This document shows, one piece after another, positions 1,832 to 11,433 of a DNA stretch of 23,210 nucleotides (positions within the stretch are counted from its first letter, which is position 1; every line of letters begins with the position of its first letter). The position numbers were made by a program, and so were the translations under genes. The DNA comes from a virus: IMG/VR virus record IMGVR_UViG_3300020197_000171, positions 1-23,210 of that record. One strand, written 5' to 3'. The notes under the pieces were generated by a model. That model saw nothing but the letters and a program-made list of their open reading frames with translations. It had not been told where the DNA came from and ran no database searches.

Positions 1832-1960
1832 ATGGAATTAGTAATTAGCGAATCTTTAGGTACTATTTTTTACTCTGTTATAGTTTTCGCCGCAGGAGCC
1901 TTGGTTGGTCAGGGGGTGTGGAATTGGGTATCCAAGTTCTTCCCATGGAATCGGAAGTAA
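1832..1960 (+). CDS. 42-residue single-pass membrane protein
   Basis: A short ORF that length-filtered ORF calling would miss. It has one of the best ribosome-binding sites in the window: AAGGAGG at 1819-1825, six bases before the ATG. The product begins MELVISESLG, then has a hydrophobic segment at about residues 11-28 (with AAGALVG), and ends in an aromatic/basic tail with three Trp and a final NRK. This suggests one membrane helix with a cationic C-terminus. It follows the preceding stop by one base and is directly followed by an intrinsic terminator, so it is the last gene of its unit. Function is not recognised; small phage membrane proteins include holins and antiholins, but nothing here decides it. 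Confidence 0.75.
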   Translation: MELVISESLGTIFYSVIVFAAGALVGQGVWNWVSKFFPWNRK

Positions 1961-1963
1961 AAT

Positions 1964-1994
1964 GAGGCGGGTCAAAAGACCCGCCTCTTTTCTT
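1964..1994 (+). terminator. Rho-independent terminator
   Basis: A perfect 10-bp GC-rich stem (GAGGCGGGTC with its complement), loop AAAA at 1974-1977, then TTTTCTT. It is the strongest terminator in the window. It lies three bases after the stop of the 42-residue membrane protein, and its T tract runs into a late promoter. Confidence 0.93.
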
Positions 1995-2001
1995 ATAAAT
2001 A
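1994..2001 (+). promoter_or_regulatory. T4-type late promoter TATAAATA (upstream of HNH gene)
   Basis: An exact match to the T4 late promoter element, which in T4 is read by the gp55 sigma factor with the clamp-linked coactivator. Its first T is the last T of the terminator tract. Taking the T4 geometry (element at -13 to -6), transcription would begin at 2007, the A of the ATG of the next gene. Confidence 0.75.
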
Positions 2002-2006
2002 TCTTC

Positions 2007-4196
2007 ATGCGCGATACTTGGTTTGATTCCCATTTCATTGACCGTTATAATAGAGATATTTTACCCCATTTAGATGGTAAACTAGATGAGGGGTATTTTC
2101 TCAAACAGAAACTTCAAGGCCAAAAATACGAACGGTTCAATTTCCGCGTAAAAAAGGCTAGAGAAGACCGTAAAGAAAAAATAGCCAGAAAAGTTCTTCT
2201 AGCAAAACATGCCAAGGAAAGAGGAGAGGCCAGAGCAAGAGATGCAATGGCTGGACAGCCAATAAGCTATCCTACTTATGAATCTGTAGAGTATGTTACA
2301 GAAAATGATCAGTCGGGTAAGACCAGAAAAAGAAGAGACATGTTCCGTGGTGGGTTGGGGGTAAGAAAAGAACTTAAAAAATCCAGGAAAATTTCTTTAA
2401 CTGGTGATGTTGAAGAAAAGGATAGAATCAGAAAACAAATCGAAAGAGAACTTGAAGAAAAATTCAGTCTTTTATCATATCCTCTTTTAGAACAGGATGA
2501 TCAGACAGATGAACAACCAGAAGATCAGCCAAAAGAAGAAGGTCAAGAGCAGCAAGAAGTAGCTCCAGAACCACTTCCATATATCGTAATGCTTTCTCAG
2601 ACCTTGGCTATGAGAAATAAGGTAAAAAATGTATTCGAAAATATATCAAATATTTCTTACAAAATTTTAAATGAAAAATACGGCGTAAGATCTATAAACA
2701 AAGACGACAGAGATTTTCAAATAGAAAATGCAATAATTCTAGTTTCTAGAATTTGCTCTGGGGCAACAGCAGAAGAATTGCAAGTTGTTTCGCAATTTGA
2801 AAACGGAAGATTTCTTGATTTTGATGAAAATGCTTTTGATATTTCCAGAAATGTACTTTTACAGCTTGGTGAAAACTGCATCAAAAATTTGATGCACGCA
2901 AGAGAAATAGAAGTATTTGAAGATGCTCCTGGTTCTGGAAGAACTCAATTGCTTTGCCAGGATAATACATTCAAGGTAGTTACCGGAAAGACTTATATCA
3001 AGGATACTACTGATTCTCCTAATTATGGAATAAAGATGCAAAAAGCGTTAAAGTCGATTTTTGCTCAATCCCCCGAAATTTACATCAATCTTGATCCGAT
3101 AATTCAAGAAATTTACACAACTCTCAAACAAAACGAAGAAGCCATTCCAGAAAAAGGCGGAATGGAATTTATTCAGTCTCAATTAGAGGAATTGATACAG
3201 CAATTAGTAGATCAAAAGATTACCTTCAAAGGAGGACAATTCGAAAAATCACTAAAGGCTGCATTAACTAAGTATCATCTAGTAGGTTCAAATATTGTTG
3301 ATCCAAGATCAAATGCTGCATTCTTATTAAGCGACTCTGGATTATTTGAACTAAGCAACGAATTTATATCTTATATCTCAAAGAATGCTTCTCTTAATAT
3401 TAAATTAAAGAAAAGATTTAAATCGACATCTGGTAGAAGAGAAATTAATTCGAAGCTTTCAAAAGAAATTGAAAAATATAAGGCTATCGTTGAACAAGTA
3501 AAAGAAAACATGAAGGTAAAAGAACCTTCAAAGGAAGAATTAATAGTTTCTCTACCAACTATAGTTCTTTCATCTATTGTTGATTATTTTGATTTCTTTT
3601 TCAGCGTTTCTATTAGCCCCGGAGAAAAAATTTCAAATAACAAAAGAAAAGCAAACGAATATAATACGATATTTGTGAAGGGTAAAGAAGTAAAAATTCC
3701 AGTCACTTTGGATAAAGGTGACATGATGACAAATACAATTAAAGAAGATATAGATCTAGCTTGCGATGTTTTAGAAGAAAGAAATATGATGTCAAAAATC
3801 ACTGCTAATGGAATAAAATCAACTAAAAACAAATCTGAAATTCCAGAAGAATTAAAGATGTTATTGGCTACAGTAATTTGCGATATGAAAAATGATCGCA
3901 AACGGGCAATCATTGAAAAACTTGAAGGCTACGAAAAAAAATATTCCAAGAAGACTAGTCACCACAGATCAAACAGAAATAAGGCTAGAAGAGCCGCAGA
4001 AGACAAGTGGGGTGCAGCCGCAATTAAAGGTAAAGATGTGGACCACAAAGACGGCAACCCCATGAACAATTCTCCAAGCAATCTTCGTTTGAGGAATAGG
4101 GGGGATAACCGCTCCGACAACGGGCATCACAAGGGAGAGGTTTTTGAGAAAGCTCGTAAGGGAATTACAAATACATTTAAGGGGAAGAATAAGTAA
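2007..4196 (+). CDS. Large phage protein with C-terminal HNH-like nuclease domain
   Basis: A 729-residue protein. The frame is open further upstream to an ATG at 1905, but that start lies inside the membrane-protein gene and before the terminator, so ATG 2007 is preferred; no Shine-Dalgarno precedes it. Residues 40-80 are highly basic. Residues 162-188 form an acidic Gln/Glu/Asp-rich linker. The middle (about 190-640) is a mainly helical region I do not recognise. The C-terminus resembles phage HNH domains: a basic helix at 652-665, VDHKDGN at 678-684 with His680 as the likely general base, NSPSNLR at 688-694, and a GDNRSDN segment at 699-705. Its last base overlaps the next gene. HNH domains are common in phage homing endonucleases; fusion to so large an N-terminal body is unusual. 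Whether it cuts DNA is unknown. Confidence 0.75.
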   Translation: MRDTWFDSHFIDRYNRDILPHLDGKLDEGYFLKQKLQGQKYERFNFRVKKAREDRKEKIARKVLLAKHAKERGEARARDAMAGQPISYPTYESVEYVTENDQSGKTRKRRDMFRGGLGVRKELKKSRKISLTGDVEEKDRIRKQIERELEEKFSLLSYPLLEQDDQTDEQPEDQPKEEGQEQQEVAPEPLPYIVMLSQTLAMRNKVKNVFENISNISYKILNEKYGVRSINKDDRDFQIENAIILVSRICSGATAEELQVVSQFENGRFLDFDENAFDISRNVLLQLGENCIKNLMHAREIEVFEDAPGSGRTQLLCQDNTFKVVTGKTYIKDTTDSPNYGIKMQKALKSIFAQSPEIYINLDPIIQEIYTTLKQNEEAIPEKGGMEFIQSQLEELIQQLVDQKITFKGGQFEKSLKAALTKYHLVGSNIVDPRSNAAFLLSDSGLFELSNEFISYISKNASLNIKLKKRFKSTSGRREINSKLSKEIEKYKAIVEQVKENMKVKEPSKEELIVSLPTIVLSSIVDYFDFFFSVSISPGEKISNNKRKANEYNTIFVKGKEVKIPVTLDKGDMMTNTIKEDIDLACDVLEERNMMSKITANGIKSTKNKSEIPEELKMLLATVICDMKNDRKRAIIEKLEGYEKKYSKKTSHHRSNRNKARRAAEDKWGAAAIKGKDVDHKDGNPMNNSPSNLRLRNRGDNRSDNGHHKGEVFEKARKGITNTFKGKNK

Positions 4197-4822
4197 TGTT
4201 TGATCTAAATCCTGAATTATTTGAATATGGTATTGCTACCGCCACATTTCTTGTTGGTGCTTATTACGGCATTAAAAAAGTAAAAAACAAACTTTTACAT
4301 AACAAAAAGAAGAAAGAGGGTAGAGAATACTGGAACATTCATTCAGAGATACACGAAATCCTTACTGAGCTTCGTATTCGTACTGGATCAGCCAGAGCAC
4401 AAATCATTCAATTTCATAACGGAGAATATTTCACGGATGGAGTTTCCATGAAGAAGATGAGTCTAACCCACGAATCTCTTCGTTCTGGTATCAGTGCGGA
4501 GGTTTATCAAAAGAAAGATGTTTTAATTTCTGCATACATTGAGTTTATTAAATCTATTTTAGATACCAAATATAAGTTTGAAATTGTTGATGTTATGAAA
4601 GAAACATATCAAAAACAGCTTTTCGTTGCCAATAATGTAGTTGCTTATATGGCAGTTCCCCTCCAGAGCAAGGGAATTAATGTTGGATATATAATAATTC
4701 ACTGGTGTAGTGATGAAAAAGTTAACCAATTAACAGAACACGCAGTATCAGAAGAAATGAAATATGCTAAAGATAGAATTGAAGTTCAACTAGGCAATCA
4801 AATAGCTTTGGAAATACCATGA
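4196..4822 (+). CDS. Membrane-anchored GAF-like protein
   Basis: A 208-residue protein with an N-terminal membrane segment (about residues 9-26, with a Gly-x-x-x-Gly spacing), a Lys-rich stretch at 27-42, then a soluble domain. That domain has an alpha/beta pattern like a GAF fold: helix 45-62, strand with AQIIQFHNGEYFTDG at 68-82, a Met/Ser-rich strand, and later strands around VAYMAVPLQ and VGYIIIHW. GAF domains usually bind small ligands or mediate dimerisation. The start overlaps the upstream stop (TAATG) with AAGGGGA about ten bases before, and the end overlaps the next gene as ATGA. Positive residues after the helix suggest the domain is cytoplasmic. The GAF call is from pattern only and the role in the phage is unknown. 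Confidence 0.6.
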   Translation: MFDLNPELFEYGIATATFLVGAYYGIKKVKNKLLHNKKKKEGREYWNIHSEIHEILTELRIRTGSARAQIIQFHNGEYFTDGVSMKKMSLTHESLRSGISAEVYQKKDVLISAYIEFIKSILDTKYKFEIVDVMKETYQKQLFVANNVVAYMAVPLQSKGINVGYIIIHWCSDEKVNQLTEHAVSEEMKYAKDRIEVQLGNQIALEIP

Positions 4823-5286
4823 AATTTACAAACAAAGTCTATGATACGGATGTTCAGGAGCAATACGATGTCGATAAAAAAGGTCCATCAAAAACTCCAG
4901 GACAAAAAATGGATATTGATAAGCGCAATAAGCGTTTCAGGACTCCTCCTTGTATGATAGATAATAAACAAGCGGAGCAGCCAGAATATATGAACAAAAT
5001 CATTCCAAACAAATCCGTCAGCCAGATCATGGTAGAAGCAAAAAAAATAAAAGAATCAGTAGAACCATATATTGAAAATCTAGCCATAGATAACTCTGAA
5101 GAAGATACAGAAAATTTAAACGATATGGCCTTTAAACCAGAACAACAAGAACCAGATCTACCTATTTTAAAGGTTATCAAAGGTAAAAATAGATTTAATC
5201 CACAAAAAATGAGAGGTTCTTCATTGCGGGTGGAATACTTTAGAAATTTACTAAATAGTACAAAGGAACTGAATGAAGAAATTTAA
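4819..5286 (+). CDS. Hypothetical hydrophilic phage protein
   Basis: A 155-residue, strongly hydrophilic protein rich in Lys, Glu, Asn and Pro with no membrane segment. The first 60 residues look largely disordered (repeated Lys/Asp/Gln and Pro). A helix is likely at about residues 65-90 (SVSQIMVEAKKIKESVEPYI), and the C-terminal 25 residues are basic with an amphipathic helix. It is joined to its neighbours by ATGA at the start and a 14-base overlap at the end, so it belongs to the same late unit. No family was recognised. A scaffold or linker role would fit the composition, but nothing shows it. Confidence 0.7.
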   Translation: MKFTNKVYDTDVQEQYDVDKKGPSKTPGQKMDIDKRNKRFRTPPCMIDNKQAEQPEYMNKIIPNKSVSQIMVEAKKIKESVEPYIENLAIDNSEEDTENLNDMAFKPEQQEPDLPILKVIKGKNRFNPQKMRGSSLRVEYFRNLLNSTKELNEEI

Positions 5287-5764
5287 AGAAATTGTCGCGC
5301 TAATTGAATCAGGAGAATCCGAGGATGGGGGTGGGTTTGGCACACCATTCCAGCCATCAAGAACTACTAGAAGTGCTGCTAGCGATTTTGGCGTTCATAG
5401 AATTGAAAATGATACTCAGCTAAACAGAATCAAAGCATTCCTTTCTAGCTTCACCAATAGAGAATATCTAGATCCCCGTGGTGCTCTTTCGATGCTAAGA
5501 GCAAAAATGAATATTATGGGTTTAGATTTCGATTTTACTCCAGCCACCAAATTAATGCCTTCTCCTGAAGGTCCAAATACATTCAAATTGAAAAGATTCG
5601 GCGGAACATTCGGAACAACCCCAGAACACGATTTAAGCAAAGGATTCCTAGTAACAGACGGAATCGCTGAGTTTAATGGTGGTAAAGGTATCGATATGGT
5701 TGTAGAAGTAATTATTACTAACAATAATCTTTACAAATTTGAAATATCATTAGTATCATCATAA
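5273..5764 (+). CDS. Conserved T4-like phage protein, function unknown
   Basis: A 163-residue protein. It starts inside the previous gene with AAAGGA about seven bases before the ATG. The N-terminus is a short helix, then a Gly-rich turn (residues 15-27). From about residue 48 it has a compact pattern with RIKAFLSSF, a DPRGALSMLRAK helix, the LDFDF strand, a GGTFG turn, and an Asp-Gly-Ile-rich strand. This resembles, from memory, a small protein conserved among marine T4-like phages and found beside the next two genes, usually annotated as hypothetical. No catalytic motif is seen. The neighbourhood (late-promoted block) suggests a structural or morphogenesis role by inference. Confidence 0.68.
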   Translation: MKKFKEIVALIESGESEDGGGFGTPFQPSRTTRSAASDFGVHRIENDTQLNRIKAFLSSFTNREYLDPRGALSMLRAKMNIMGLDFDFTPATKLMPSPEGPNTFKLKRFGGTFGTTPEHDLSKGFLVTDGIAEFNGGKGIDMVVEVIITNNNLYKFEISLVSS

Positions 5765-5770
5765 AATGAT

Positions 5771-6160
5771 ATGGAATTATTAAATGAACAAAACTTTAAT
5801 TATTTTGCAAAACTGAAATATAATAATCCAGTATGTGAATCAGTCGAAGAATTTAATGATGATATAAAAAGAATAAAGTATATTAGAAGACTTTTTCAGA
5901 AGTTTGACGAAGAAAAAGTTTTAAAACACCATCTGATATGCAATCATATTCTTATTTTAATTAACTTGTTTGGAGAAGAATCGGCATTAAGAATGATCTT
6001 TTTCAGGCTTGAAAAAAAATATCATGGTTTTTTAAAAGCCTTTATAAATTATTTAAATTTTAAGATTGAATCAATTCCAGAGATAGATTTGAAATTATTA
6101 GCACCTGATGTAAGAATTACTAGAATATTGAATAAAGTAGAAAAACAAAAAAATGACTAA
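5771..6160 (+). CDS. Conserved T4-like phage protein of the NHI(I/L)L-FG type
   Basis: A 129-residue, mostly helical protein. Its core matches a pattern I associate with a widespread small protein of T4-like phages: NPxxxSxEEF near residues 19-28, DIKRIKYIRRLF at 30-41, then CNHILILINLFGEESALRMIFFR, of which the diagnostic part is the NHI...NLFGEE segment at 57-71. That family has no known activity and usually sits in the virion-gene region. No clear Shine-Dalgarno precedes ATG 5771, six bases after the previous stop. It overlaps the next gene by 8 bases. Codon use is AT-rich like its neighbours. The family resemblance is from memory, not from a search. Confidence 0.68.
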   Translation: MELLNEQNFNYFAKLKYNNPVCESVEEFNDDIKRIKYIRRLFQKFDEEKVLKHHLICNHILILINLFGEESALRMIFFRLEKKYHGFLKAFINYLNFKIESIPEIDLKLLAPDVRITRILNKVEKQKND

Positions 6161-7361
6161 TATGAACGAATCAATCTCTAATTCTGGTTTGATGGTAAAG
6201 AGTTTTACTGTTTATAAATTTTTAACTCTTTTATCATCACCTTTCTCTTCTTTTGATGCTTTTAGAAAAGGAATAATTGATACTAGAGGAAACTATGTTA
6301 AGGATATAGATGAAGCTTTTAGAAGCGGTTCTCTAGATCCGCTTGAAGTAATCATAATAAAACTAAAGAAAATAATAGCCACATCATCTGATCCTGGTCT
6401 AAAATCTTCTTTGAGCAATAATTTAGCTACTTTTGACCTTTTTCTAAATGAGATGTATCAGTATAATGTTCTTCCACACGAATCATTATATTTACTTGAA
6501 ACTCACTGTTTAAAAAAAGGATTTTCATTAATTAATGCTCTATTAGAGGATACGACTGTCGGTGGAGGTGGTATTCCAGGACTTAGTATAACTGATATAA
6601 TTGGACCAAAAAGAAGAAAAAAATCTAAGATTTTTAGAAGAAAGGAATTGATGGAAATGGAAGTCGGGGCAGGACTTCCTGGCGCAGATGCCGACGTGCC
6701 ACCATCACAACATGATAATACTTCGGGTTATACGAACAAGATTCGTAATTTACATTCCGTGAATAACTTCGATGAAGACGGAGATGGTGTTGACATTGGT
6801 GATTTATGGATGGAATTTTGGAGGCTATACCAAGAATTATTAAGGCAACTTGGTGATGATATTCCTGGAGCTGATGGTTCATTAGTAGAAAAAATTATAG
6901 AAATTCTAGAAAGACTTAAAGCTTTGGGAGAAGAAATACCAGAAAATTTACTAAACTTGCAAAATTCAGATATCAATGATGACCAAGATAATGACGGAAT
7001 ACCAGATCATTTAGATAACGATATAGATAATGATGGAATTTATAATGTATATGATCCAGATTCTCCGTATTGGACAGATGAAAATGGTAATGGTATTCAT
7101 GATTGGATAGAACCAGATCATCCAGAAGATGACGAAAATGGTAATGGAATAGATGATGCTTTGGAAGATAGTGATAATAACGGAATTCCCGATATCTTTG
7201 ATAAAGATGGAGATGGAATAGATGACGATTTTGAAGATGATGATGGCGATGGAATTCCTAATGGTAATGATTCTGATGATGATAATAACGGAATATTAGA
7301 TTATCAAGAGTTGATTGATAGGATAAGACAATTCACGGCGATGAATAATCATTATAAATAA
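6153..7361 (+). CDS. Phage protein with C-terminal Ca-binding-type (TSP3-like) Asp-rich repeats
   Basis: A 402-residue protein (a second in-frame ATG at 6162 is possible). Residues 15-130 are a helical domain with VYKFLTLLSSPF and FRKGIIDTRGNYVKD, resembling from memory a small T4-like phage family adjacent to the preceding gene. A basic patch RRKKSKIFRRKE follows at 154-165. An EF-hand-like loop DEDGDGVDIGDL lies at 207-218, then a helix. From 273 to 383 come repeats of the form DxDNDGIxD, like thrombospondin type 3 repeats, whose Asp side chains wrap calcium ions. The late promoter of the next unit overlaps its stop codon. A virion surface or adhesion role is plausible; neither domain's function is established here. 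Confidence 0.75.
   Translation: MTNMNESISNSGLMVKSFTVYKFLTLLSSPFSSFDAFRKGIIDTRGNYVKDIDEAFRSGSLDPLEVIIIKLKKIIATSSDPGLKSSLSNNLATFDLFLNEMYQYNVLPHESLYLLETHCLKKGFSLINALLEDTTVGGGGIPGLSITDIIGPKRRKKSKIFRRKELMEMEVGAGLPGADADVPPSQHDNTSGYTNKIRNLHSVNNFDEDGDGVDIGDLWMEFWRLYQELLRQLGDDIPGADGSLVEKIIEILERLKALGEEIPENLLNLQNSDINDDQDNDGIPDHLDNDIDNDGIYNVYDPDSPYWTDENGNGIHDWIEPDHPEDDENGNGIDDALEDSDNNGIPDIFDKDGDGIDDDFEDDDGDGIPNGNDSDDDNNGILDYQELIDRIRQFTAMNNHYK
7353..7360 (+). promoter_or_regulatory. T4-type late promoter TATAAATA (lysis-like pair)
   Basis: An exact TATAAATA that overlaps the stop codon of the preceding gene. T4 spacing predicts a start at 7366, which is the first G of the GGAGG ribosome-binding site at 7366-7370, giving a leader of only about ten bases before ATG 7376. 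Confidence 0.78.
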
Positions 7362-7375
7362 ATCTGGAGGTTATT

Positions 7376-7810
7376 ATGCCGACTGAGTTGATTTCATTAA
7401 TAGGCGGAAGCCTTACTGGGTTTATCTTCCGGTTCTTGGCCCAGAAGAGCCAAGACCAGAAGGAACTATTTGAGCGTCTAATAACCGCCAATAAGCAAAC
7501 CACAGACAACCAAGAAAAGGCAGCTAAGAGAGTTCCTATCGATGTTGGTAAGGGGGTTCGGCAGTTGATCGTCCTAACAGTTCTATTCGGAACCATTGCT
7601 GCTCCTTTCATTCTTCCATTCTTTGGAGTTCCTACCTTCGTTGAAGTCGATGGTAATAACCCCGAAGCCCTATTTGGTTTGATTCCGGAGACTACGAAGA
7701 AGTACTTCGTTGAGATAAATGGGTATCTCTACACCTCAGAAAACAGACAAATTCTTGTTGCAATTGTCGGGTTCTATTTCGGTACAGCCGCAGCAGGGAG
7801 AAAGTCATGA
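7376..7810 (+). CDS. Three-segment membrane protein, holin candidate
   Basis: A 144-residue protein with hydrophobic segments at about residues 5-22, 64-85 (LIVLTVLFGTIAAPFILPFF) and 126-141 (ILVAIVGFYFGTAAAG). A charged helix rich in Gln, Lys and Glu (23-55) separates the first two and a polar loop with Asp/Asn/Pro separates the last two. Size and topology resemble three-segment phage holins, including the gene-transfer-agent holin type, which permeabilise the inner membrane to end infection. GGAGG lies five bases before the ATG and a late promoter is just upstream. It overlaps the next gene as ATGA. The neighbouring lipobox protein strengthens a lysis reading, but no endolysin is in the window, so holin remains a candidate call. 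Confidence 0.6.
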   Translation: MPTELISLIGGSLTGFIFRFLAQKSQDQKELFERLITANKQTTDNQEKAAKRVPIDVGKGVRQLIVLTVLFGTIAAPFILPFFGVPTFVEVDGNNPEALFGLIPETTKKYFVEINGYLYTSENRQILVAIVGFYFGTAAAGRKS

Positions 7811-8067
7811 AAAAAATATGGAAAATGTTCATTGCTATTCTTTCTATTTCTGTTTTGATAGCCTTTGCTGGTTGCCAATCCGTTGCACCAGAAATTGTCC
7901 CAGATATAACTGGTGATAATGTCGTTATGCTCGACATCAAGAGCCAGATTGAAAACAACAAGATGGTAAAGGATGATTATGGTTGGGTAATCTGGTATCT
8001 ACCAATACTCTTCCTCGTTGTTGCTTGGGGTTGGAAAGAATTCTTCGGTAAGAAAAGGGGCGAATAA
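7807..8067 (+). CDS. Small lipoprotein with C-terminal membrane segment, possible unimolecular spanin
   Basis: An 86-residue protein. Residues 1-22 form a signal peptide (positive MKKIWK, hydrophobic core) ending in the lipobox FAGC, so Cys23 would be lipidated; Gln at +2 does not signal inner-membrane retention by the E. coli rule. A short polar stretch (24-57) leads to a hydrophobic segment at about 58-76 and a Lys/Arg-rich tail. An outer-membrane lipid anchor plus a C-terminal inner-membrane helix is the layout of unimolecular spanins such as phage T1 gp11, which disrupt the outer membrane. The periplasmic part here, about 35 residues, is much shorter than in known examples. GGGAG lies upstream and the start overlaps the holin-like gene (ATGA). 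It could instead be a plain two-segment membrane protein. Confidence 0.6.
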   Translation: MKKIWKMFIAILSISVLIAFAGCQSVAPEIVPDITGDNVVMLDIKSQIENNKMVKDDYGWVIWYLPILFLVVAWGWKEFFGKKRGE

Positions 8068-8120
8068 TTAATAAACTTTTTTTACAATACATTCAAGAAA
8101 AGCAAAAGAATAATTTTGAA

Positions 8121-9278
8121 ATGATTTCTTTCAAGAATTCTATGAGAAAGAATTCTTGGCAGACCCCATTACCAATAGTACAGATTATCGCGGAGGAGTT
8201 TGGCAGTGATATACCAGAAACACTACCGCCTGTAACTGATAATCCAATTCCAGATATACTTAAACCCGTCCATCCTTGGTACAATCCAGCTAATCCTTAT
8301 TGGGATCCAACTAATCCTCTTGATAATCCTGGAGTAAATGACCCATATGATCCTAATTATAACCCAAACCATTCACAATCAGATGCTGACGGGGATGGAA
8401 TTCCAAATATAAACGATCCAGATCATAAAGCATATGATCGAGATCATAGTGGTTCGGATAGAGATGGGGATGGAATTCCAAATATAAACGATCCAGATCA
8501 TCAAGCATATGATCCCCGGCATCCGCTGTCAGATCAAGACAGAGATGGTATTCTTGATGTAAATGATCCAGATAGTCCAGGGTATGATCCATCACACTCG
8601 GGATCCGATCAAGACAGAGATGGTATTCTTGATATAAACGATCCCGACAATCTGGCATATGATCCCAATCATCCAAACTCCGACGCTGATGGTGATGGTA
8701 CTCGCAATGTAAATGATCCAGATAGTCCAGGGTATGATCCATCACACTGGGGATCCGATCAAGACGGAGATGGTATTCTTGATATAAACGATCCCGACAA
8801 TCTGGCATATGATCCCAATCATCCATACTCCGACGCTGATGGTGATGGTACTCTCAATGTAAATGATCCAGATCATCCATTATACGATCCATATCATCCA
8901 GATTCAGATATTGATGGTGATGGAATTCCTAATGAAAGAGATCCAGACTGGGAATACTATAACAATTCAAATGAATTGCCATGGGGGGATGGTGACATGG
9001 ATGGTATTCCTAATAGAAACGACCCAGATCATCCACTATACGATCCAGCGCATGAAGATTCGGACGGAGATGGTGATGGAATTCTGGATATAAACGACCC
9101 AGATGATCCGGCATACGACCCAGACCATCATGATTCAGATAATGATGGTGATGGCATTCCTAATTGGGTAGATCCAGATTCCCCATATTTTTCGGATGAT
9201 GATGGGGATAATATTCCCAATTATCGTGATCCTGGCCACGACTTATATGGCCGCCCCATACCAAGTGATATAAAATAA
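8121..9278 (+). CDS. Asp-rich 25-residue repeat protein (TSP3-like, calcium-binding type)
   Basis: A 385-residue protein. After a short N-terminal part and a Pro/Asn/Tyr-rich stretch (47-85), about twelve repeats of 25 residues run from near residue 87 almost to the end. Each has SDxDGDGIxN(I/V)NDPD followed by a YDPxHP-type linker. The DxDGDGxxD core is that of thrombospondin type 3 and EF-hand-like calcium loops. There is no signal peptide or membrane segment. ATG 8121 has only a weak upstream site, and the frame is open back to an ATT at 8067 overlapping the previous stop. The product is extremely acidic. A calcium-stiffened fibre, adhesin or decoration protein is a reasonable inference; a similar repeat tract ends the gene at 6153. 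Confidence 0.8.
   Translation: MISFKNSMRKNSWQTPLPIVQIIAEEFGSDIPETLPPVTDNPIPDILKPVHPWYNPANPYWDPTNPLDNPGVNDPYDPNYNPNHSQSDADGDGIPNINDPDHKAYDRDHSGSDRDGDGIPNINDPDHQAYDPRHPLSDQDRDGILDVNDPDSPGYDPSHSGSDQDRDGILDINDPDNLAYDPNHPNSDADGDGTRNVNDPDSPGYDPSHWGSDQDGDGILDINDPDNLAYDPNHPYSDADGDGTLNVNDPDHPLYDPYHPDSDIDGDGIPNERDPDWEYYNNSNELPWGDGDMDGIPNRNDPDHPLYDPAHEDSDGDGDGILDINDPDDPAYDPDHHDSDNDGDGIPNWVDPDSPYFSDDDGDNIPNYRDPGHDLYGRPIPSDIK
8378..9238 (+). repeat. 75-bp tandem repeat array (about 12 units)
   Basis: Twelve in-frame units, mostly 75 bp, each encoding a 25-residue Asp-rich repeat; unit 8 carries two extra residues and the last two units are shortened. Within it a 150-bp double unit is nearly duplicated (about 8559-8725 against 8709-8875); the GGATCCGATC word recurs exactly 150 bp apart at 8601 and 8751. 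The first and last units are more diverged. Confidence 0.85.
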
Positions 9279-9332: not shown

Positions 9333-9920
9333 ATGTCATCAATCTCTAGCGCATATAAATTTAAAATAGAAAAACTAGTAAACGAAATAAATCGACTCAT
9401 TCTAGAAAATAGAAAATTAAATAATTTTATTTGTGAAGCACGCACCCTTGACCCCCGAAACCGAAATCAACTACTTGTTCGCCCTTCTCACCCCGACCAA
9501 CCTGAACTCGGGGTGGAAGGTGATGACTTGCTCCCTGAGTTCCCTCCAAGGACCACCGACATGAGCTGGCTTACATCGAGTGCTCATGCAGATGCTATGG
9601 AAGATGCTGAATTGAAAGAAGTTGGTGAAAAATATGGTATTACTCTAGGACTAGATCGGCAGGAACATCAACAGGATCAACAAGGACCAAGAGATGATTT
9701 TTCTTTACATTCTAGCCGCGTTGGCCATGACCAGAGCGACGAACGCACAGAGGGTGGTAGTCTTCATCCTCATCATACTCACACTTTTGAAGCAATGCAT
9801 CCAGGTGGTAGACAATTTACTGGAAGTATGGTTGCGCCCAATGACGGTGTTGCCTTGGCTAAATTACGAGAAAAAGGATTATTCCCTACTAAAATAAAAG
9901 AACTTCCGTCAAGAAGATAA
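9333..9920 (+). CDS. Hypothetical late protein with His-rich C-terminal half
   Basis: A 195-residue protein. Residues 5-32 form a Lys/Glu/Leu/Asn helix likely to be a coiled coil. A Pro/Arg-rich, more GC-rich stretch follows (about 37-77). The C-terminal half is rich in His, Gln and Asp, with HPHHTHTF near residues 149-156 and a conserved-looking HPGGRQFTG segment. The end is basic. The ATG has TAGGA seven bases upstream and its own late promoter. The His cluster might bind metal, but no enzyme motif is recognised. It is the last forward gene before the convergent replication cluster. Confidence 0.72.
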   Translation: MSSISSAYKFKIEKLVNEINRLILENRKLNNFICEARTLDPRNRNQLLVRPSHPDQPELGVEGDDLLPEFPPRTTDMSWLTSSAHADAMEDAELKEVGEKYGITLGLDRQEHQQDQQGPRDDFSLHSSRVGHDQSDERTEGGSLHPHHTHTFEAMHPGGRQFTGSMVAPNDGVALAKLREKGLFPTKIKELPSRR

Positions 9921-9925
9921 ATTTA

Positions 9926-9949
9926 TTAATTATAAATTTTTATAATTAA
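9926..9949. terminator. All-AT hairpin between convergent genes
   Basis: A perfect 11-bp stem made only of A and T around a TT centre, in the gap between the converging clusters. It overlaps the stop codon of the reverse-strand resolvase gene. The position fits a two-way terminator, but the AT-only stem makes it weak. Confidence 0.4.
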
Positions 9950-10481
9950 ATTTACAAATGTAATAGGCATCTACAATATCTGATATTGGGTTGCCTATTT
10001 CTTTTTTAGCATCATTCATGTGGAATCGTAAATCAACTCCTGTTTCTTCGACAAATGCCTGAAACATCTCTGGCTTTCCAGCATTTCCTTTTCCAGTTGC
10101 AAATTTTTTAACTTTTGTTGGTTGAACAACATCAAGTGGAATTGATTGTTGCCAAAGCTTATACTTAAGAATTCCAGTGTTCTCTGCTATATGAAAGACT
10201 CTTCCTTTTGCTCCATAGGCATAGTCTTCAAGTGCTACCATACTACAACCAATTAAAAGATCTACTGCCCAGTCTGAGATGCTATCGTATCTTCCACACT
10301 CTGCTGTGTAATCCGGAAATAGTTCTCCACGAATATTATTGTTAAACATCGTGGCATTCTTTTTGGTATCAGTCAAAAAATAGAACATGCAGTTCTTATA
10401 AGAAAACTCCCCGTGCATTCTGCCGTTGAAGATGCAGATGCAAGGGGAAGTTAAAGAGTAGTCAATACCAGCGATTATCAC
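9930..10481 (-). CDS. RuvC-like / RNase H-fold Holliday junction resolvase
   Basis: A 183-residue protein with the acidic residues of the RuvC fold in order: Asp7 in GIDYSLTSP, Glu85 in VALEDYAYG, and Asp168 and Asp171 in ISDIVDAYYIC. A Lys/Gly-rich segment (KKFATGKGNAGK, 125-136) may contact DNA. Such enzymes cut four-way junctions and clear recombination intermediates before packaging, the job done by endonuclease VII in T4. The only start at the right place is GTG at 10481, seven bases after the upstream stop, and no Shine-Dalgarno is visible. It is the last gene of the reverse cluster. The fold call is strong; junction specificity is inferred from family and UvsX context. Confidence 0.78.
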   Translation of the reverse strand: MIIAGIDYSLTSPCICIFNGRMHGEFSYKNCMFYFLTDTKKNATMFNNNIRGELFPDYTAECGRYDSISDWAVDLLIGCSMVALEDYAYGAKGRVFHIAENTGILKYKLWQQSIPLDVVQPTKVKKFATGKGNAGKPEMFQAFVEETGVDLRFHMNDAKKEIGNPISDIVDAYYICKFNYKNL

Positions 10482-10488
10482 ATACTAT

Positions 10489-11433
10489 TTATTTGCGTTT
10501 CTTTGCTTTAGTTTTTCTTTTTGATTTTGGTCTTGCAGCTTTATACTCTGAACGCAAAGCTTCTAAAGCTTCTTGATGATCATCAGCGGAATCATGATCG
10601 CCTCTATCTCTGCTTGCTTGTATTATTCTTAAAGTTTCTTGTTTTACAGTTGCCATTGCATGATCAAAGCTTCCTTTTTTCCACATTTTAACAGCATTAT
10701 CGTTTGCTTTTTGTTCTGCCTGTTGTATCCTGGCTTTATGATTTTCTGGTGTTTCTTTTTCGTATTTTGATCCAAAACTTATTCCAATTGATGTGGAAGG
10801 ACCACCAGAAGTATATTCTCTATATCTTTTAGCCGCTGTTCTTCCTCTAGAAGCGTCAGTAGCATAAAATGATGTTTCTAGATCCCTCAACCCCTTTGCT
10901 GTTTTAGCATCTGGTTCAGCAACAAATACTCTTTCAAATCCACCAATGACATGAAAATCTCTTTTACCAATTATATCTTCTATATGGGGCTTATCTCTTT
11001 CGTGAGTTCTGATTCTTATCGCATTACCTCTTCTGTTAAAAGACAATTGTTCAACGGTTCTTGGATCTAATCCTATTTCTTTTAAATCTTCTCCTTTATA
11101 AGTTCTTCCTCTTTTAAGTTTAGATGGATCAACTCCCGACAAAAGAGCGTGATGTGTTGGAGAATTATAATGAACCCCTTTAGGTGCTCTGCTTCCAGCC
11201 GTTACGCTTTTTACTTCAACTGTACTATCATCATTAAGCACAACATCAGGTTCGTTATCTGTTGTATGAAAATTAACCCCTTCAAGTGAATCTGTATAAT
11301 GACCAACAGCATAAGCTAAAAGCTTGCCTCTCATATTATTCAATTTTGTAGAATAGCTATTATTTCTAGATACTTCAGTTCTAGCTTTAGCTCTTTCTAA
11401 TAATATTTTTATAAGATTAAGCCTATGGTCCAT
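10489..11433 (-). CDS. Candidate PD-(D/E)XK nuclease with basic tail
   Basis: A 314-residue protein not recognised as a named family. Residues 61-76 read EPDVVLNDDSTVEVKS, which fits a PD-(D/E)XK active site (Asp63, Glu73, Lys75), preceded by a helix with RGKLLAYAVGHY (35-46). The middle contains several Arg/Gly-rich stretches, and the C-terminus is a Lys/Arg tail (KSKRKTKAKKRK) suited to binding nucleic acid. It starts three bases after the RNR stop with only a poor ribosome-binding site; Met34 is a possible alternative start and would keep the motif. Sitting between dNTP synthesis and a resolvase suggests a DNA-processing role such as host DNA breakdown. This is an inference from one short motif. 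Confidence 0.55.
   Translation of the reverse strand: MDHRLNLIKILLERAKARTEVSRNNSYSTKLNNMRGKLLAYAVGHYTDSLEGVNFHTTDNEPDVVLNDDSTVEVKSVTAGSRAPKGVHYNSPTHHALLSGVDPSKLKRGRTYKGEDLKEIGLDPRTVEQLSFNRRGNAIRIRTHERDKPHIEDIIGKRDFHVIGGFERVFVAEPDAKTAKGLRDLETSFYATDASRGRTAAKRYREYTSGGPSTSIGISFGSKYEKETPENHKARIQQAEQKANDNAVKMWKKGSFDHAMATVKQETLRIIQASRDRGDHDSADDHQEALEALRSEYKAARPKSKRKTKAKKRK

Follow-up and report, generated by a model that had tools for sequence, protein, structure and literature searches.

Organization of the locus

The window, i.e., the whole 23,210-bp stretch of DNA analyzed here, is an IMG/VR record that belongs to a T4-like phage. Its DNA polymerase is nearest to those of cyanophages (52% identity), and it also codes for a UvsX-like recombinase, a T4-type primase and a DnaB-like helicase. 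It is a fragment, within which no gp23 gene was found. Two genes for Asp-rich repeat proteins, called 6153 and 8121 after the first positions of their ORFs, are part of a block on the plus strand, and the replication genes face this block. The block includes a conserved neighbor gene (5273..5764), whose homolog in Melnitz is found in the same order (BLAST E 1.6e-5), and a DUF7207 gene (5771..6160; PF23837, E 6.1e-30), which is located immediately 5' of gene 6153 and serves as a syntenic anchor. The order in close relatives is DUF7207 gene, 6153, 7376, 7807, a variable slot, and RuvC on the opposite strand, and the DUF7207-anchored order is also present in Syn9, ACG-2014d, Melnitz and S-CREM2.

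Several other features of the window were recorded. A 763-aa protein (1905-4196), conserved in this block, harbors an HNH_3 match at its end (E 8.9e-9). The protein encoded at 4819-5286 is short (155 aa) as compared with that of several relatives (~290-376 aa), and it lacks a KSGLGKWF-type segment that some of these contain. Between the RuvC-like gene and that of ribonucleotide reductase, a gene for a 314-aa protein without PHROG match (10489-11433) occupies a position at which relatives hold differing ORFs, and which represents a second variable slot.

As stated in a preliminary description of this DNA, the repeat genes flank two membrane proteins, both with hydrophobic segments. The first (7376..7810, plus strand) is of the phrog_38283 family (1.8e-15), and related proteins are encoded in at least 80 viral contigs. 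The second (7807..8067, plus strand) is a small protein with a lipobox-like signal (AFAGC) and a C-terminal hydrophobic segment, two traits that are also found in several of its relatives; an automatic scan in which a strict C-terminal segment was required retrieved this arrangement in only 11 of 91 loci. Its topology is that of a unimolecular spanin, but the stretch between signal and segment is short. A role in lysis is possible for the membrane pair, and is not supported for the repeat genes given that the pair occurs widely without Asp-rich neighbors.

Protein 6153

Gene 6153 (6153..7361, plus strand) codes for a 402-aa protein composed of an N-domain, an arm and linker, a helical hairpin and an Asp-rich tail. 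The conserved N-domain (residues 1-132; 6153..6548), as delimited by family alignments, has L130-L131-E132 at its C terminus and belongs to the phrog_2086/phrog_18642 family (phrog_2086, E 3.6e-9, in PHROGs); it is the only part of the protein that gave a match among Pfam, PHROGs and NCBIfam. The following arm segment and basic linker (residues 133-160; 6549..6632) are the positional equivalent of the arm of distant family members. Farther downstream, AlphaFold2 predicts a helical hairpin (residues 213-260; 6789..6932) with a mean pLDDT of ~67-92 in 10-residue blocks; the pLDDT of the whole model is 58, and the repeats are not modeled confidently. A BFVD search yielded no match at E <=0.001 (best 1.3e-3), and VIA-align covered chiefly the hairpin, with Z <6. 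The irregular tail (residues 277-385; 6981..7307) contains four near-full TSP3-type loops (shuffle mean 0.01), three or four of them counted as full, and nine loose D.[DN].[DN]G cores at irregular spacing. The long extensions of some relatives of 6153 (L094, L097, L105; L numbers denote related loci) have a nuclease-like look by eye alone, and this assignment was dropped as nothing was found in Pfam.

Protein 8121

The ORF at 8121-9278 (plus strand, 385 aa) harbors eleven loops of the form DxDxDGxx[DN]xxD with a period of 25 residues (once 27), within units that read DxDxDGxx(N/D)xxDPDxxxYDPxHxxS and that span positions 8382..9212. Shuffling the whole protein gave a mean of 0.06 loops and a maximum of 2, and shuffling its Asp-rich part alone gave a mean of 0.12, again with a maximum of 2, so that the presence of Asp-rich TSP3-like repeats in both ORFs, as initially described, is beyond the shuffle expectation. 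Both proteins are very acidic, with net charges of ~-78 (8121) and ~-51 (6153) and pI values of ~4.05-4.15.

At the DNA level, repeats of 75/150 bp were detected in gene 8121 by TRF, including a recent 150-bp duplication in the middle of the array (95% matches). Residues D1, D3, D5, G6, D12, P13 and D14 are identical in 11/11 units, with either N or D at position 9 throughout; the six ligand columns (D1, D3, D5, N/D9, D12, D14) are thus Asp or Asn in all eleven repeats. Between units, the core positions have a pN of 0.025 for a pS of 0.67, as compared with 0.42 and 0.64, respectively, for the spacers. Because the ligand residues were kept while synonymous sites drifted, selection appears to have acted on the loop, and the regularity of the array would not merely reflect recent DNA expansion.

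Protein 8121 has no match in Pfam, PHROGs or NCBIfam, and scans of viral and genome contigs with its sequence retrieved no relative. Similarly, tblastn searches of phage records with both full proteins and the 6153 N-domain gave no match with the low-complexity filter on. The AlphaFold2 models of 6153 and 8121 have low confidence in the repeats (pLDDT ~35-65), and that of 8121 (pLDDT 48) yielded no structural match in the PDB.

The beginning of the gene departs from that of its relatives, where it is 18-20 codons farther upstream than ATG 8121. Relative to L014, L019 and L020, the window has a 7-bp deletion (8071..8072, plus strand) that takes out their ATG. The frame of the window is nevertheless open back to ATT 8067, with AAAAGGGG 5' of it (8053..8060), which from its sequence may be a ribosome-binding site for a start at this ATT. 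Either this ATT or the internal ATG 8121 may serve as the start, unless the gene is damaged, and the deletion itself may stem from an error in sequencing or assembly. The ORF initially described does exist, but the start found in relatives lies upstream of it.

In its ancestral frame (8067..9278), the gene codes for a 43-residue N-terminal module (8067..8195), a linker and the eleven repeats. The module is common to the Asp-rich protein of L014, to the 231-aa, not Asp-rich proteins of L017, L019 and L020, and to a gene found at a different place (L117, in the record of L009). In the window, it ends near an I-A-E motif.

Class of the predicted calcium loops

The preliminary description held the repeats of the two proteins to be of different types. 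This is correct as regards spacing, which is irregular in 6153 and regular in 8121, but both sets belong to a single loop class, the TSP3 type. The 25-mers of 8121 share the ligand spacing DxDxDGxx(D/N)xxDxD with TSP3 (PF02412) and with the loop of the C-rich domain of teneurin-4. When their profile was compared with the PDB, one chain of note was retrieved, teneurin-4 (7plp, E 0.16), a likeness at the level of the motif and not of homology. In that structure, two calcium ions are coordinated in a TSP3-like manner, and the crystallographic ligands D843, D845, D847, D851, D854 and D856 match the ligand positions of 8121 (PMC9058538). The phage repeats nevertheless differ from TSP3 by the lack of disulfides, by a unit of 25 residues in which the spacer reads YDPxHxxS, and by the lack of a Pfam match. 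Thus, protein 8121 is devoid of Cys and 6153 has a single one, outside its tail, which leaves no TSP3 cysteine pairs between units. At the PF02412 gathering cut-off (25 bits), the window proteins gave no match; the two L014 proteins scored 17.7 and 21.0 bits. The Asp-rich parts of 6153 and 8121 align with each other above shuffles (182 vs. a maximum of 131), which is weak evidence given their composition and repeat structure.

Other loop types were considered and set aside. The EF-hand pattern gave five hits and one hit, fewer than the TSP3 pattern, and the dockerin pattern gave none. In L118, a 277-aa protein (9749-10582, minus strand) has a coiled-coil-like start and two dockerin-like units (DYNGDGVVDGADLG), and a second type of calcium-loop repeat is thus present in a related phage. 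From the match of the ligand pattern and the conservation at the codon level, the repeats of the window proteins are predicted to bind calcium. A search of a limited literature collection found no paper that joins thrombospondin type 3 with phages.

Evidence for gain and exchange of the repeats

Among relatives, the 6153 N-domain is followed by an Asp-rich tail in the window, L002, L003, L011, L014 and L019, and has no such tail in L005, L007, L008, L009, L012, L013, L015, L016 and L018. The N-domain tree, in which several inner branches are weak, calls for at least three tail changes. The 6153 gene of L014 is an intragenic mosaic, with nt 1-536 being 85% identical to the tailless L005 and the part from nt 257 being 84-86% identical to the tailed L003 and L019. 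L003 and L011 share 60% identity across the tail, as against 55% across the N-domain. In addition, the two Asp-rich proteins of L014 have a helical module in common (score 75, shuffle maximum 44). The 8121 slot is also variable. It is empty in some relatives; where it is filled, the product has 231 aa, is Asp-rich with 304 aa, or is large (508-1021 aa). The mosaicism and the tree support the earlier proposal that repeats were gained or exchanged between neighboring genes.

Indications of a location in the phage head

The T4 prohead protease gp21 cuts after L/I-x-E (PMC9026906), a motif that L130-L131-E132 of 6153 fits. E132 is invariant and L130 is at least 90% conserved among 20 family members, and both are invariant in the 14 close ones. 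Of the related records, those of L094 and L004 were found to carry a Peptidase_S77 gene. In distant members of the 6153 family, the segment that follows the N-domain and L-x-E resembles the N-arm of gp23. With a profile of this distant arm, gp23 (L109, in the same record, G001, as L094) was the first match outside the 6153 family among 3999 ORFs (E 6e-11), and S-CREM2 gp160 (8e-5) and an ACG-2014d protein (0.02) were also retrieved. The likeness to gp23 is seen in distant members, and the arm of the window protein is positionally equivalent to theirs.

The S-CREM2 gp160 gene is located immediately 3' of the DUF7207 gene, as are those of the proteins labeled 'major head protein' in Syn9 and ACG-2014d. 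These proteins have the arm segment in common with the 6153 family, but neither a phrog_2086-type N-domain nor an Asp-rich repeat tail. Seven unique peptides of gp160 were detected in virions by mass spectrometry, and the products of nearby genes, gp154, gp155 and gp156, were likewise detected, with the proviso that some detected proteins may have persisted with virions through purification (PMC10665884). As gp160 shares the arm segment and not the N-domain with 6153, its detection in virions transfers weakly to the latter. In Melnitz EXVC044M, the gene that follows the DUF7207 gene codes for a homolog of the N-domain itself (QZI94762.1, E 3e-8), a protein of 203 aa without TSP3-type tail.

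The proteins encoded in the 8121 slot of relatives point in the same direction. Those of L008, L011, L013, L016 and L021 have a capsid-targeting N terminus of ~10 residues that ends in L/I-x-E, which is the layout of T4 IPIII (PMC9026906). Of eight distinct slot proteins, four have a T4-type capsid-targeting N terminus, whereas among 658 other genes six do (Fisher p 1.8e-6); the pattern used for this count follows the published layout and was set after some sequences had been seen. A looser pattern retrieved 16 genes, as compared with 3.6 expected from shuffled N termini (maximum 10). Such an N terminus is absent from 8121 and from the slot proteins of L014 and L019. The module of 8121 differs from that of the T4 internal head proteins and is longer, and its cargo is acidic, whereas the T4 ones are basic. 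Altogether, a location of the two proteins in the virion is indirectly supported by these analogies.

Proposed role and alternatives

Our preferred interpretation, which we consider to have an even chance of being correct, is that both genes code for T4-type head-assembly proteins with exchangeable calcium-binding cargo, and it is held with greater confidence for 6153 than for 8121. In each protein, a conserved N-terminal part would serve head assembly and carry a cargo, here TSP3-type loops. The N-domain of 6153 would act like a propeptide, removed after L-L-E132 by a T4-type prohead protease to yield an acidic mature chain of approximately residues 133-402 (computed pI ~4.05). Protein 8121 would be packaged by means of its short N-terminal module, in the slot where relatives carry capsid-targeted proteins. 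The repeats would be flexible in the low-calcium cytoplasm and would form compact folded chains in the presence of calcium, and the cargo would be exchanged by recombination at module borders. Of these elements, the binding of calcium by the repeats, the cleavage, the position in the head of this phage, the packaging of 8121 and any role once infection has begun are inferred. It would be a long shot to propose that the TSP3-type chain is one cargo of an interchangeable head-protein site, packaged with the DNA and changing state on meeting calcium outside the cytoplasm. The sensing of high calcium by the repeats, suggested in the preliminary description, has no specific support.

The same description proposed a calcium-dependent surface or fiber module, in which the repeats would be calcium-stiffened rods that protrude from the virion and aid attachment. 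TSP3-type loops are found in secreted and surface proteins, and variation in repeat number and sequence would fit an exposed part. The tail of L011 is also weakly similar to a model of the surface lipoprotein CglD (E 2e-5, far under the cut-off). However, the neighbors and relatives of the genes indicate head assembly, through the gp23-arm homology, the L-x-E motif and the capsid-targeting N termini of slot proteins, and no fiber, adhesin or baseplate-attachment domain was found in the window proteins with Pfam, PHROGs and NCBIfam, although such a domain may escape profile searches. We regard a surface or fiber module, which has no specific support, as unlikely. The mature part of these proteins may lie on either side of the head, and a cargo on its outer face is possible.

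Alternatively, the proteins might be ejected and act in the host by their charge, for instance as DNA mimics or as calcium chelators directed against defense, in the manner of T4 internal proteins. One of the latter, IPI, is ejected and counters restriction (PMC9026906), and the capsid-targeting N termini of the slot proteins, the strong negative charges of 8121 and 6153, and a rapid exchange of cargo suited to an arms race are consistent with this scenario. Charge alone would not require the residue-by-residue conservation of ligands, the T4 internal proteins are basic, and there is no known target or link to defense, which together make an action by charge quite improbable. It is likewise quite improbable that the two are intracellular late proteins outside the virion, whose repeats would serve host take-over or lysis with the membrane pair, given that this pair is kept in many loci without Asp-rich neighbors and that the 6153 family has gp23-arm homology, even though the repeat genes are tightly spaced with 7376-7810 and 7807-8067 and the virion link through S-CREM2 is indirect.

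If the head-assembly interpretation is correct, phage head proteins would carry, as an interchangeable part, calcium-binding repeat chains of the kind best known from animal adhesion proteins. The locus, with its tail present, absent or exchanged, would then represent a natural series for probing the function of the cargo.
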